A stretch of 64,000 nt of DNA from Polaribacter sp. L3A8 (lineage in GTDB: Bacteria > Bacteroidota > Bacteroidia > Flavobacteriales > Flavobacteriaceae), in assembly GCF_009796785.1 (NCBI RefSeq), contig NZ_CP047026.1:1882001-1946000 (forward strand). Reading direction: 5' to 3'. Below are positions 9,853 to 15,458 of the stretch, one piece after another. Numbering within the stretch: position 1 is the first letter of the stretch; each line of letters begins with the position of its first letter. Under the pieces are notes generated by a model. It had not been told where the DNA came from and did no database searches. It worked only from the letters and a program-made list of their open reading frames with translations. Position numbers and translations under genes: made by a program.

Positions 9853-11373
9853 TTACAAAGCAGCTTTAATTTTATCTACAAAACCAGCAATTGTATAAGG
9901 TTTAGAAATTACACCAGAAAAACCTAAAGCTAAATACCTTTCTAAATCTTCATTAGACGTATTTGCAGTTAAAGCTATAAACGGTGTTTTTGAATTCATA
10001 TTTACAGTAGGTAACTTTCTCATCAACTCCTCACCAGTCATATTTGGCATGTTAATGTCTAATAAAACAACATCAAAAGTTTCTTTTTCTATTTTAGCTA
10101 GCGCCTCTAAACCATCGTTTACAAGGGTTAAATTAGATTTTTCTTTCCCTAAAATATGTGCAACTATTGTTTGATTCATAATATCATCATCAGCCACTAA
10201 AATATTTTTACCTTTTAAAGACTTATTACCTTGTTTAAGACTTTCTCCTTCTAATGGTTTTGGTAATTCTTTTATTTTAGAAAAAGGAATTTCAACAAAA
10301 AAAGAAGTTCCTATATTTAGTTCACTTTCAACAGAAATATTTCCATTCATAGCAGAAATTAAGCGATTTACAATCGCCAAACCTAAACCTGCTCCACCAT
10401 GAATTCTATTATCATCTAATTCGTTTTGTTGGTATTCTTCAAATATTTTTAAGCATTGCTCTTTAGACATTCCTCTACCAAAATCCGTAACTTCAAAAAT
10501 GATCTTCACCAATTTCGCTGACTCAGAAGCCACTTTTACACTTGTAATAACACGTCCTTTACTCGTAAATTTTATAGCATTACCTATTAAATTTGCTAGT
10601 ATTTGTTGAATTCTAACAGCATCTCCTAAAACAAGTTTAGGTAACTTACTAGAAGTAATAAAAACGAGCTCTACTGCTTGGTTTGTATGTAACTGTTCAA
10701 AATCATTTTTACAATTCTGAATAATTTTTTGAATAGAAACTTGCTCAGACGCCAATCTTAATTTACCTGCTTCAATACGAGATAAATCTAAAATATCTTC
10801 AACAATAACTTTTAAGTTTTTACCAGAAGTTGATAAATTTGCTATATATGTTGCAGCCTTTTCATTCAGTTTCTCTGATGTAATCATTTCTGCATAGCCA
10901 AGAATTGAGTTCAGTGGGTTTCGAATTTCATGGCTCATAATTGCTAAAAATCGTGATTTTTCTTCATTTGCCTTGTCAGCAATTTTTCGCAATACATCTA
11001 ATTCAATGTTCTTTTCTGCAAGTTCTCTTTTGATAAAGAAAATATCATTTCTATTCTGATTCAGTTCACTTACATACTTATATACATTTGTTCTATTATG
11101 TATTAAAATATCTATTGAACTATCAGATTTAAAAATTTCTAAATCTATGTTGTATTCTATTGACTCCGAACTCAGAATCATCCCTTCTAAAAGAAAAGAC
11201 TCTTTTAAAGGTAGCGCTTCTAAAGTACCTTCTAAAAAAGGGCAAGCATCATAGATAGATTCTTTAAGTACAAATTCTTTTTTAGTAAATTTTCCCGCAA
11301 TAATATTTGTTATAACTCCTGAATAATCAGTAGTTAGTTGTAAAAAAACATCTTCTATTTTTGCAGGTATCAA
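9853..11373 (-). CDS. Soluble hybrid histidine kinase / response regulator
   Basis: Cytoplasmic two-component sensor of 506 residues without membrane segments. Order: an uncharacterised PAS-like N-terminal region (about 1-110), a short coiled coil (112-140), HisKA with phospho-acceptor His148 in MSHEIRNPLNS, HATPase_c with N-box Asn265 (NLIGNAIKFT), G1 box DFGRGM (Asp297) and G2 GGAGLGLAI (326-334), then a C-terminal receiver with the acidic cluster Asp395-397, phospho-acceptor Asp439 (LLDINMP), Thr469 and Lys491. No output domain is present, so phosphate is probably relayed to another protein. It is the last gene of a four-gene operon, 6 nt downstream of the small-GTPase gene, which suggests that GTPase state and kinase activity are coupled. 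No neighbouring Hpt protein or DNA-binding regulator was seen. Confidence 0.93.
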   Translation of the reverse strand: MIPAKIEDVFLQLTTDYSGVITNIIAGKFTKKEFVLKESIYDACPFLEGTLEALPLKESFLLEGMILSSESIEYNIDLEIFKSDSSIDILIHNRTNVYKYVSELNQNRNDIFFIKRELAEKNIELDVLRKIADKANEEKSRFLAIMSHEIRNPLNSILGYAEMITSEKLNEKAATYIANLSTSGKNLKVIVEDILDLSRIEAGKLRLASEQVSIQKIIQNCKNDFEQLHTNQAVELVFITSSKLPKLVLGDAVRIQQILANLIGNAIKFTSKGRVITSVKVASESAKLVKIIFEVTDFGRGMSKEQCLKIFEEYQQNELDDNRIHGGAGLGLAIVNRLISAMNGNISVESELNIGTSFFVEIPFSKIKELPKPLEGESLKQGNKSLKGKNILVADDDIMNQTIVAHILGKEKSNLTLVNDGLEALAKIEKETFDVVLLDINMPNMTGEELMRKLPTVNMNSKTPFIALTANTSNEDLERYLALGFSGVISKPYTIAGFVDKIKAAL

Positions 11374-11379
11374 TAAATA

Positions 11380-11865
11380 TTATTTTAAAGTTTCACTGGT
11401 TAATTTCATAAAAGCATCGGCTACATTTTCATCTTCTTTTGCACTCGTAATTAGATCTATGTCTACAGAAACCTTCTGTATTACGTTTTCTAATTCTTTA
11501 TCAGAAAGTAAATCTTTTTTATTACCAACAATAGTTATATTCTGCAAACCAGACAACTCCCTAATCATGTTTAAGTTTTCATCAATCGTCACATAAGTTT
11601 CCTCTCTACTAAGATCAAACACAAACATTGCTGCATGAGAGCCTAAAAAATAGGCTTTCGGTATTTTCTCATTACCATTTGTACCTGCAACATCCCAAAT
11701 CATTAATTTAATAGTTTCGTTCTTATACTCCACTACCTTTTTGCTTACTCTTACGCCAATAGTACTAATGTAATCCTCAGAAAACTCATTTAAAACAAAC
11801 CTTCTAATTAATGAAGTTTTACCAACACCAAAATTACCAACTAGTAGTACTTTTTTTGCTTTCAT
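11380..11865 (-). CDS. Ras/Rab-like small GTPase
   Basis: A 161-residue stand-alone P-loop GTPase of the Ras/Rab type. All five G motifs are visible: G1 GNFGVGKTS (residues 10-18), G2 Thr35 in STIGV, G3 WDVAG (Asp58, Gly61), G4 NKKD (115-118), G5 SAK (141-143). The position equivalent to Ras Gln61 is Thr62 (DVAGTNG instead of the usual DTAGQE), predicting slow intrinsic hydrolysis and dependence on a partner. There is no C-terminal cysteine for prenylation. It lies between a predicted longin/roadblock protein (17 nt upstream) and a hybrid histidine kinase (6 nt downstream), so it most likely acts as the switch of this signalling operon, as MglA works with the roadblock protein MglB. Effector unknown. 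Confidence 0.93.
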   Translation of the reverse strand: MKAKKVLLVGNFGVGKTSLIRRFVLNEFSEDYISTIGVRVSKKVVEYKNETIKLMIWDVAGTNGNEKIPKAYFLGSHAAMFVFDLSREETYVTIDENLNMIRELSGLQNITIVGNKKDLLSDKELENVIQKVSVDIDLITSAKEDENVADAFMKLTSETLK

Positions 11866-11882
11866 AAATTATGATTGATTAT

Positions 11883-12692
11883 TTATTCTTTAATTAATTC
11901 GTTAAATATTAATTGGTTTAAGCGTTCTTCATCAGACAAATAAGAACGATCTCTTAAAATAATTTCAGTTAAATTATTTATATTATCAGATAGTTCTTCT
12001 GTATGTTCTTCCGTTAAAACACCCGAGGTTGCAATGGCAATATAAATTGTTTTAAAATTTTTAATAGAAAGCTGAAAAGTTTCAAACTTTATATTTTCTA
12101 AATCTTGGCCTTCTTTAGAAAAAGCATCTTCGGCAAAAGATTTAATAGCCGTTAACATACCAGAAATCATGTCTTTATCTGCAATACTACCTCTAGAATA
12201 GCTTCCAGAAAGTAAACCAGATTCTTTTTCAATCACAAAAATTTCTTCGATAACAAATTCAAAAACTTCTTCTAAAACAATACCTGCATCGTTTCTTTTT
12301 CCTTTAAAGAATCTTTTAAGAATTTCTTGAATAGAGAATTTTTCTTTTATCGTTTTATTAATTCTATCGGATAACTTTGTAATTTCTGCAACAATAAATT
12401 TCTTAACCATTTTACCCATAATTGGGTATAAGGCTTCTACAACTTCGTCTTGAGAGTCTCTAATTTGAACTTTTATAGTTTCTGTAATTGTATCTCCAAA
12501 ATCTCTTGAAAAGTTTTTACGTAAATCTAAGATTTTCTCATCTACAAGTGGAGCAACTCTTTTAGATAGTTTTTCTCTTAGAATAATTTCTTCACTAAGG
12601 GAATTAAACTTTTCTCTATCTTCAGTTAATAAAAGGTCTCTGAGCAACTCAAAACGATTGTCTTTATTGTTATCTACAGTTTTTTTTTTCAT
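11883..12692 (-). CDS. Predicted GTPase-platform protein with longin/roadblock-like domain
   Basis: A 269-residue soluble protein. Residues 13-40 hold a motif RFELLRDLLLTEDREKFNSL; residues 41-135 are helical and charged; residues 145-225 (IEEIFVIEKESGLL ... DKDMISGMLTAIKSF ... TIYIAIATSGV) resemble the profile of small-GTPase-binding longin/roadblock domains, with the hydrophobic strand, GLL turn, a helix with SGMLTAI, and a final strand. From memory the same N-terminal motif plus this domain occurs in the N-terminal half of certain large bacterial OmpA-family proteins next to small GTPases; here the OmpA part is absent. It sits between a coiled-coil gene that it abuts without a gap and the GTPase gene. 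Probable role: GTPase regulator or docking platform. The fold assignment is by pattern only. Confidence 0.65.
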   Translation of the reverse strand: MKKKTVDNNKDNRFELLRDLLLTEDREKFNSLSEEIILREKLSKRVAPLVDEKILDLRKNFSRDFGDTITETIKVQIRDSQDEVVEALYPIMGKMVKKFIVAEITKLSDRINKTIKEKFSIQEILKRFFKGKRNDAGIVLEEVFEFVIEEIFVIEKESGLLSGSYSRGSIADKDMISGMLTAIKSFAEDAFSKEGQDLENIKFETFQLSIKNFKTIYIAIATSGVLTEEHTEELSDNINNLTEIILRDRSYLSDEERLNQLIFNELIKE

Positions 12693-13046
12693 TTATTCTT
12701 GCAACATCAATGCAATTTTCTCTAAAGCTTTACCTAGTTTTTTTCTATCTGCTTTTTCATCATCTAAATCGGCTAATTTTTTATCTAAATCGTCATTTAA
12801 GTCTTGAAACTTGTGTTCCATCAAACTTTCTAAATCAGCTAATTTATTTTCTAGGTTTGTAACAGACTCTGAAATATTTTTTTCAGTTTGATCTTTAAGT
12901 GTTTTAATTTTGTCGTAAACATCAGCAAATTCACTGCTGTATTGTTGCATGTTTTCGCCAAAAATTAAATCTCTTACTGCTGCAATTCTATCATCAATTT
13001 TATGATTTTCAACTACAGGCTGTTTATTTTCTGAATTTTTTTCCAT
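12693..13046 (-). CDS. Coiled-coil protein, first gene of the GTPase/kinase operon
   Basis: A 117-residue hydrophilic protein of unassigned function. Residues 20-40 (RIAAVRDLIFGENMQQYSSEF) resemble the N-terminal motif of the next gene's product (RFELLRDLLLTEDREKFNSL), so the two proteins share a module. Residues 45-100 form a long acidic coiled coil (heptad-like LENKLADLESLMEHKFQDL), and the end KADRKKLGKALEKIALML is amphipathic. Its stop codon touches the next start codon with no spacer, indicating translational coupling. It is probably a scaffold or oligomerisation partner in the GTPase module. A -7 promoter element lies 71 nt upstream. Confidence 0.75.
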   Translation of the reverse strand: MEKNSENKQPVVENHKIDDRIAAVRDLIFGENMQQYSSEFADVYDKIKTLKDQTEKNISESVTNLENKLADLESLMEHKFQDLNDDLDKKLADLDDEKADRKKLGKALEKIALMLQE

Positions 13047-13149: not shown

Positions 13150-13932
13150 CTAAATGGTTATTTTTAGGCCATCGTACGCCAAAAAAACGTTATTTGGTAG
13201 TATTTTAGAAACAGCATCATGAAAGCCTAACTTATGACTTATATGCGTTAAATATGCTTTTTTTGGTTTTAATTCGGCTATAAAATCTAATGCTTCTTGC
13301 AAATTAAAATGAGTTGAATGTTCTTCTATTCTTAACGCATTAACTACTAAAACATCTAAATTTTTCAATTTTAATTTTTCATCCTCAGAAACATATTTTA
13401 CATCTGTTAAATACCCGAAATCGCCAAATCTATACGCTTTTATTGGTAAATTTCCGTGTAAAACTTCTATAGGTGTTACTTTTAATTCATCAACATAAAA
13501 ACTAGTGCTACCAACAATTTTGGGCAACACACTTGGCGCTCCTGGATACCTGTTTTCTGTACTAAAAATATATTCAAACCGCTTTTCTAAACTGTGTAAT
13601 GTTCTCTCATTTAAATAAATAGGCATCTCTCCTATTTGATAGCAAAAAGCTCTTAAATCATCTAAACCTCCTATATGATCTGCATGTTCATGTGTAAAAA
13701 AGACCCCGTTTAAAGACTGTACATTCTCTCTTAACATTTGCTGTCTAAAATCTAAACCACAATCTACAGTGTAAGAAACATTGTCCCAAGATATTAAAAC
13801 AGAAGACCGCAAACGCTTATCTTTTAGGTTCTTAGACAAACAAACAGGGTCATTATTTGCAATCATAGGGATTCCTTGAGAAGTACCTGTTCCTAAAAAG
13901 GTAATATTTAGTTGTTTCTTGGTAAAGTTCAT
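13150..13932 (-). CDS. MBL-fold metal-dependent hydrolase (PhnP/RNase Z-like group)
   Basis: A 260-residue metallo-beta-lactamase-fold hydrolase. The N-terminus TFLGTGTSQGIP (residues 11-22) is typical of the PhnP/ElaC side of the superfamily, and the zinc motif HEHADH is at residues 81-86, followed by further ligands near GDFGYLTDV and THISHKLGF. PhnP cleaves cyclic ribose phosphates, and related proteins act on cyclic nucleotides or phosphodiesters; the substrate here is not determined. It is divergent from the 482-residue conserved gene at 14010, and the two share a 77-nt promoter region. Its own -7 element ends only 5 nt before the ATG, predicting a leaderless or nearly leaderless mRNA. 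Confidence 0.88.
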   Translation of the reverse strand: MNFTKKQLNITFLGTGTSQGIPMIANNDPVCLSKNLKDKRLRSSVLISWDNVSYTVDCGLDFRQQMLRENVQSLNGVFFTHEHADHIGGLDDLRAFCYQIGEMPIYLNERTLHSLEKRFEYIFSTENRYPGAPSVLPKIVGSTSFYVDELKVTPIEVLHGNLPIKAYRFGDFGYLTDVKYVSEDEKLKLKNLDVLVVNALRIEEHSTHFNLQEALDFIAELKPKKAYLTHISHKLGFHDAVSKILPNNVFLAYDGLKITI

Positions 13933-14009: not shown

Positions 14010-15458
14010 ATGGCAATTTCTTTAAAAGGAGACCAAGAAATTAGTAGTGTTCCTACTATAAAAAGCAAAGCGTTACGAATTAACCTAAATAGAGATATTT
14101 ACGGAACCTTTGCGGAAATTGGGGCAGGGCAAGAAACTGCTCGTAACTTTTTTAGATCTGGAGCTGCTTCTGGAACCATAGCTAAAGCAATGAGTGCTTA
14201 TGATAAAGATTTTTCTGATGCTATTTATGGCATAGAAGAAGATAAGCGTTATGTAACACAGCCTAGATTAAAAAAAATGTTAGGTCACGAAATCGATTTA
14301 ATGGAAGATCGTTTAAGCCGACAAAAACATCCTGACAAATTATTTTTCAGTTATGCAAATACAGTTACTACCATAGATTTTGCAAAACAATTTAAAGGTC
14401 ATGGTTGGGTAGGTATCCGTTTTCAGTTAGATCCACTAGAGGGTTATAATGAAATTGTTTTACACTTACGTTTTAAAGAAACGGATGCTCGTTTACAACA
14501 AGAAACCTTAGGTATTTTAGGTGTAAATTTAATTTACGGTGCTTTTTATTTAAATGACAATCCTAAAGACTTAGTAAAATCTTTTTACGATAATTTAAGT
14601 AGCGACCATTTAGAAATTGATATGATTAATTTCTCTGGACCGCGTTTTATGTATGTAGACAACAGATTAATGAGTTTACAGTTACTTAAAAATGGTATGA
14701 CCAATGCTGTAATGTTTGGCCCAGACGGAAACAACTTATTACCTGCTCAGGTTTTATACAAAAAAAACATTTTAGCTTTACGTGGAAGTTTTAGACCTGT
14801 TACTAAGGTAAATATGGACATGTATGAAAAATCTAAAAAATTATTTTTATCAGAAAATAAAGTTGAAGAAATTAAAACACAAGTTATTTTTGAAATTACA
14901 TTAAGTAACTTAACAGCTGAAGGTAAAATTAATGAAAGAGATTTCTTAGATAGAGCAGAATTATTGTGTTCTTTAGGACAAAATGTAATGATTACTAGTT
15001 TTCAACAATACTTTAAATTAGTAGAATATTTTAGTGAATTTACTAAAGAAAGAATGGGGTTAACGATGGGAACTCAAAACCTTATTCAAATTTTTGATGA
15101 AAAATATTATAGAAATTTAAGTGGAGGAATTTTAGAAGCTTTTGGAAAACTATTTAATAGAGACCTAAAGGTATATATGTATCCTTACCATGATGTAGCT
15201 ACTGGAGAGTATATAGATAGTGAAAGCTTAAAGGTACACCCTAGAATGAAAGAACTTTATAAATTCTTTAAGAACAATGGTAAACTTGTAAATATTGATG
15301 ATTTTGACAAAGAAATACTAGATATTTTTTCTCGTACGGTTTTAAAAATGATTTTAAACGGAGAACAAGGTTGGGAAGAAATGCTACCAGAAGGAATTGC
15401 AGATACTATTAAACAAAAAAGACTATTTGGCTACTCTAGATCTAGAATAAAAAAATAA
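14010..15458 (+). CDS. Conserved protein of unassigned function (482 aa)
   Basis: I recognise this as a family conserved in Flavobacteria but cannot assign a reaction. It is a soluble protein with no signal peptide or membrane helix. The N-terminal part is strongly patterned: KSKALRINLNRDIYGTFAEI (residues 19-38) continuing with GAGQETARNFFRSG and SGTIAKAMSAYDKDFSDAIYG, which suggests a phosphate- or nucleotide-handling loop. Later features include YANTVTTIDF, GWVGIRFQLDP, and FSGPRFMYVDNRLMSLQL. I recall homologues being labelled as nicotinate-nucleotide adenylyltransferases, but no HxGH nucleotidyltransferase motif is present, so I do not accept that. It has its own promoter and precedes the ECF sigma gene by 50 nt. 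Confidence 0.8.
   Translation: MAISLKGDQEISSVPTIKSKALRINLNRDIYGTFAEIGAGQETARNFFRSGAASGTIAKAMSAYDKDFSDAIYGIEEDKRYVTQPRLKKMLGHEIDLMEDRLSRQKHPDKLFFSYANTVTTIDFAKQFKGHGWVGIRFQLDPLEGYNEIVLHLRFKETDARLQQETLGILGVNLIYGAFYLNDNPKDLVKSFYDNLSSDHLEIDMINFSGPRFMYVDNRLMSLQLLKNGMTNAVMFGPDGNNLLPAQVLYKKNILALRGSFRPVTKVNMDMYEKSKKLFLSENKVEEIKTQVIFEITLSNLTAEGKINERDFLDRAELLCSLGQNVMITSFQQYFKLVEYFSEFTKERMGLTMGTQNLIQIFDEKYYRNLSGGILEAFGKLFNRDLKVYMYPYHDVATGEYIDSESLKVHPRMKELYKFFKNNGKLVNIDDFDKEILDIFSRTVLKMILNGEQGWEEMLPEGIADTIKQKRLFGYSRSRIKK

Follow-up and report, generated by a model that had tools for sequence, protein, structure and literature searches.

What does a Rab-like small GTPase do beside a phosphorelay kinase, and does the carrier protein encoded between it and a short, probably coiled-coil protein belong to the same device? 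The question is raised by four adjacent genes of Polaribacter sp. L3A8, which lie in the 64,000-nucleotide stretch of DNA analysed here (the window). The original prediction, made from the letters alone, had described an operon of four open reading frames (ORFs), and all four were recovered at the coordinates it gave and on the same strand, with gaps of 0, 17 and 6 nt when read from 13046 down to 9853 (Table 1).

Table 1. Genes of the operon (window 9853..13046), in order of reading
Feature	Position in window	Strand	Length and basis
First gene in the operon: short protein, probably a coiled coil	12693..13046	-	117 aa; ORF list
Platform protein: helical N-terminal part and predicted longin domain (about residues 145-269), without OmpA tail	11883..12692	-	269 aa; ORF and model
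Rab-like (Rup) small GTPase with Thr at the G3 glutamine position	11380..11865	-	161 aa; Pfam, PDB, motifs
Hybrid histidine kinase: PAS-like adapter (1 to about 95), next helix with Gln106, His148, receiver Asp439	9853..11373	-	506 aa

Neither the platform protein nor the 117-residue protein matches a Pfam or NCBIfam model above cut-off; the latter is a probable coiled coil, judging by weak coil-type Pfam matches and by the gene neighbourhoods described in the passages of PMC4316618 used here. Promoter-like sites occur at the operon at chance level only, and no terminator was seen after its last gene. In six Polaribacter-genus genomes without the system, the flanking genes for a metallo-hydrolase and a 482-residue protein are adjacent in every case, and the flank sequence searched holds no match to any of the four genes; both system-carrying genus genomes examined keep the block. 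Because the flanking genes adjoin in 6/6 genomes without it, the four-gene system acts like a self-contained unit that the cell can do without. The 482-residue protein itself (14010-15458) scores above cut-off with none of the Pfam or NCBIfam families, and its gene adjoins the metallo-hydrolase gene (13150-13932) in all eight genus genomes examined.

The presence of a GTPase was confirmed: the 161-residue protein belongs to the Ras family (Pfam Ras, 4.2e-33), and its top sequence matches in the PDB are Rab1 (2.6e-27). The expectation that every G motif would be intact held for the motifs themselves (GNFGVGKTS at 10-18, WDVAGTN at 57-63, GNKKD at 114-118 and TSAKE at 140-144), but not for the catalytic glutamine of G3, whose position is taken by Thr. 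A regular expression applied to 111 distinct GTPases of the family found Gln at this position in only one. Elsewhere in the genome the Ras model gives four weaker matches, in ORFs of 304-959 residues, which we take as putative translation or ribosome GTPases.

Ras-like G motifs lacking the catalytic G3 glutamine were described for the Group 1 Rup GTPases by Wuichet and Sogaard-Andersen in 2014 (PMC4316618). According to the passages of that paper on which we draw, three further proteins are encoded alongside: one with a coiled coil; one in which an unknown conserved domain often precedes a membrane helix and an OmpA domain; and an output protein, in the typical case a histidine kinase or a c-di-GMP enzyme, whose N-terminal part holds an invariant glutamine. 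The paper suggests that the GTPase receives a glutamine in trans. On its motifs, neighbourhood and output glutamine, the window operon is assigned to the Group 1 Rup systems. The original prediction had held that a link between such a switch and a kinase was not a described system; these neighbourhoods, reported in 2014, overturn that view, as do the conservons of Actinomycetota, in which a roadblock protein and a GTPase are combined with a kinase (passages of PMC4316618 and PMC13343842). In 2014, the same passages state, none of the Rup GTPases had been characterised, transcription evidence for one aside. Our search of open-licence full-text literature found no later functional test of a Group 1 Rup system, and the passages that it returned from two later papers only cite the Rup classification.

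For the platform protein, a longin/roadblock fold had been claimed at residues 145-225, and structure prediction bears this out over a somewhat longer region: the models show a fold of this type at about residues 145-269, with the predicted strand-strand-helix-strand-strand-strand-helix core. Model quality is middling (mean pLDDT 67, pTM 0.48, one domain block at 50). The 50 structural matches listed are longin or roadblock chains, judged by title, and many belong to complexes with Rab, Arf, Rag or MglA as binding partner. At the level of sequence, alignment with a roadblock profile (hhalign) gave a probability of 2.4 and an E value of 0.019, below significance; searching the PDB with the single protein returned no match at E <= 1, and searching with the family alignment returned matches at chance level only. 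Among the 120 of 840 homologues listed, most of those that carry a name come from Polaribacter and bear the label 'cell envelope biogenesis protein OmpA', yet Pfam finds no OmpA domain in the window protein, whose sequence ends after the conserved domain. A membrane helix is predicted by hydropathy at residues 295-343 in 7/8 platform proteins of other bacteria, and OmpA scores above cut-off in four of seven to eight relatives, namely in three of the seven scanned besides the Polaribacter type (L024, L042, L054, L064, L102, L093, L041) and in L089. Since the passage in PMC4316618 says 'often' of the OmpA tail, its absence from the window does not exclude membership of Group 1 Rup. One Bacteroidia genome (G564) also holds a second coiled-coil and longin gene pair (L200, 5777-6879), with the GTPase gene absent beside it.

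These genes are read most economically as a Rab/longin switch that is tethered to the envelope and works on an exchangeable output. The balance tips slightly towards a Group 1 Rup system in which a Rab-like switch on a longin platform controls that output by the following route. Through a peptidoglycan-binding protein and the coiled-coil protein, the longin protein would be held at the cell envelope; its longin domain would bind the GTPase and set its nucleotide state; the GTP form would bind the PAS-like adapter of the kinase and alter autophosphorylation of His148; and the phosphoryl group would pass from His148 to Asp439 and on to a further phosphotransfer partner. The catalytic Gln that the GTPase lacks may be provided in trans by the adapter glutamine, as proposed for Group 1 Rup in the passages of PMC4316618, in which case the output would also turn the GTPase off. 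Sequences and models show the association of the genes, the folds as predicted, the absent and the conserved glutamine and the co-occurrence with the peptidoglycan-binding protein; within this scheme we infer the binding, the nucleotide exchange, the hydrolysis in trans, the control of the kinase and the direction of signalling.

The output protein carries HisKA, HATPase_c and Response_reg domains (Pfam). Its kinase and receiver residues are complete, with His148 in SHEIRNP, an N-box at 261-269 and Asp439 in LLDINMP, and hydropathy predicts no membrane segment, so that the earlier description of a soluble hybrid kinase stands. Outputs were compared across the best 80 of at least 490 confirmed loci, a sample drawn from a scan of named genomes and skewed to long forms and cyanobacteria. 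Taking the first downstream same-strand ORF of at least 280 residues within 1.5 kb, or else the longest, yielded a candidate in 73 of the 80; some are wrong genes, as peptidase, integrase and transporter families appear among them. When these were aligned with the window kinase (74 sequences), Gln106 was the sole column conserved at 90% or more. It is present in 67 of the 74, and the seven candidates without it are probably mostly wrong genes. The glutamine is also kept in all five stand-alone adapters without a kinase, an indication that it works with the GTPase core and not within the kinase itself. GGDEF and EAL are absent among the 25 of 33 output families listed, a result that, set against the outputs named in the passages of PMC4316618, does not contradict that paper. 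In one further Bacteroidia genome (G584, family f123) a receiver protein, a LytTR response regulator and an Hpt protein adjoin the system (Pfam; L201, 1991-5126), and they are likely a phosphorelay for the kinase; ORFs similar to these neighbours in size and order occur in G564 (L202).

The catalytic half of the output varies among loci, being a kinase, a cyclase, an HD protein or a sigma-54 activator, while the remainder is constant; one family (f72) has an output protein in which no catalytic domain was found, the adapter standing alone. The link to the kinase is thus not the fixed one first supposed. This exchangeability also bears on the direction of signalling. In a reversed scheme, the PAS-like region and kinase would respond to a signal in the cytoplasm and determine the state of the GTPase, which would act with the longin protein at the envelope, much as was proposed in 2014 for conservons, where the GTPase is posited as the output (passages of PMC4316618). 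The predicted PAS-like fold of the adapter is one that often serves in sensing, and in f72 an adapter without a catalytic domain suffices. Free swapping of the catalytic half against a constant remainder is, however, how an output end behaves, and the receiver of a hybrid kinase already gives it a phosphotransfer route. We regard the reversed scheme as unlikely, and retain the direction from GTPase to output.

A candidate for the envelope tie emerged from three short-form relatives (L015, L016, L019), in which a membrane-protein gene ending in PG_binding_1 (assigned by Pfam in L019) lies directly upstream of the coiled-coil gene. The window genome has a homologue of this anchor at C1:123011-123658, about 1.77 Mb from the operon. 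About 3 kb from that gene (L207, 9378-12000) lie what we take to be a response-regulator-like ORF and a further long ORF, together with a 179-residue ORF that is presumably a heme NO-binding domain. In another Polaribacter genome (G016; L128, L132) the anchor gene is in two pieces in different frames, from either a broken gene or a sequencing error.

Anchor and platform co-occur in the same 16 of 59 related genomes. A TamB tree of 30 of those 59 (with the G025 sequence shortened to 1046 residues and stop signs removed from the rows) needs only two changes to explain this pattern, one of them due to a genome that is 75% complete (G032). The match within the genus thus amounts to about one event, so we dropped it as independent evidence for the anchor and used a survey of the class instead. 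A full-length anchor is present in 9 of 396 Bacteroidia genomes, spread over families f1, f22 and f72, and all nine are among the 15 genomes that bear the platform (hypergeometric 8e-15, ancestry ignored). These nine remained from 41 genomes that matched the anchor profile, once 32 had been set aside as partial; nearly all partial matches cover the PG-binding region only, and that of G472 positions 1-102 only. Without a full-length anchor are both long-form genomes and 4 of the 13 short-form genomes (G189, G564, G584 and the fragmented G759); G638, classed as long form, has only a weak OmpA match (E 0.006, below cut-off), and G578 was left out of the scan. The anchor gene lies within the operon in two genomes each of f13 and f22. 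In f72 it stands apart from the platform gene and is followed by the coiled-coil gene in 4/6 genomes; no coiled-coil gene was seen beside it in the other two. The anchor is a probable fifth component of the system. A point against the scheme is that the anchor has almost no cytoplasmic part with which it could reach the longin protein.

Attachment of this kind could serve placement and nothing else: the longin protein and GTPase would put the output at envelope sites, like MglA at cell poles, with no regulation of its enzyme. The many relatives with a membrane helix and an OmpA domain, or with a separate peptidoglycan-binding membrane protein, are in keeping with such a device, as are eukaryotic longin and roadblock platforms, which serve as adaptors at membrane sites (passages of PMC10933270). 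Pure tethering is a poor fit, however, for the one sigma-54 activator output, which must reach DNA, and we think placement without regulation quite improbable. The preferred reading, a switch that controls its output, also accommodates the conservation of the gene set. Where the best 80 of at least 490 loci have enough flank, the platform gene has a coiled-coil gene on its upstream side in 70/73 and a GTPase gene on its downstream side in 70/75, which supports the proposal that these genes are conserved together; in L035, L036 and L037 the GTPase gene is present but divergent. The record titles include Cyanobacteria, Nitrospirota, Acidobacteriota, Gemmatimonadota and Planctomycetota. One long-form locus (L074) is on a contig titled Klebsiella pneumoniae MAG, likely a mislabelled bin. 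The association of the genes exceeds chance: with their order kept in most of these loci and across many phyla, and with the components retained in f72 although divided over two places, it is barely credible that unrelated genes merely came to be adjacent.

The gene set has been known since 2014; what seems to be new is the predicted fold of the carrier protein, its probable cell-wall-binding partner and the exchange of outputs. With the longin prediction, the unknown-domain protein acquires a testable role; the anchor suggests that the input comes from the cell wall; and the swapping of outputs on one adapter suggests a general relay of Ras type, to which bacteria couple phosphorelay, cyclic nucleotide, HD-type or sigma-54 outputs. 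A predicted longin platform next to a bacterial Rab-like GTPase also bears on the origin of the longin-Rab partnership. As a speculative extension that we think unlikely, many phyla may carry a device like TRAPP or Mon1, in which a peptidoglycan-tied longin exchange factor loads a Rab-like GTPase that switches any enzyme fused to a PAS-like adapter; the adapter Gln would complete the active site, making each output its own GAP and timer. If so, the longin-Rab partnership would predate or parallel eukaryotic membrane traffic.

Several known systems invite comparison. Membership of MglA/MglB was rejected, the window genome having no Robl_LC7 match; the window GTPase is of the Rup type, unlike those of Myxococcus and Thermus, and no significant profile-level link connects the platform to roadblock. 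Membership of the conservons (AGPS) was rejected likewise, as no roadblock or other conservon-type Pfam model matches the four proteins and the genome has no roadblock. The passages of PMC13343842 and PMC4316618 describe a conservon as a four-gene operon of kinase-like, platform and unknown-domain proteins with a small GTPase, to which the window operon is alike, and the accessory proteins found where the conservon kinase lacks an extracytoplasmic sensor (PMC13343842) resemble the separate anchor. The conservon, however, has an MglA-type GTPase, an MglB-type roadblock protein and a membrane kinase, whereas the window has a Rab-like GTPase, a longin-type platform without roadblock sequence match and a soluble hybrid kinase. 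With Group 1 Rup systems, as described in the passages of PMC4316618 used here, the operon shares the coiled-coil protein, the conserved-domain protein, the GTPase without G3 Gln and the output with an N-terminal Gln, histidine kinases being among the outputs named. It differs in having a platform without membrane helix or OmpA and a separate, co-occurring peptidoglycan-binding membrane protein; in those passages we found neither the longin fold nor the PAS-like adapter, nor outputs of the cyclase, HD and sigma-54 kinds. TRAPP, Mon1-Ccz1 and Fuzzy-Inturned, which are among the best structural matches, share the longin fold (here predicted) beside a Rab-like GTPase. The window platform has no meaningful sequence match in the PDB, and, in contrast to these multi-subunit complexes, it is the product of one gene and is coupled to bacterial signalling enzymes.
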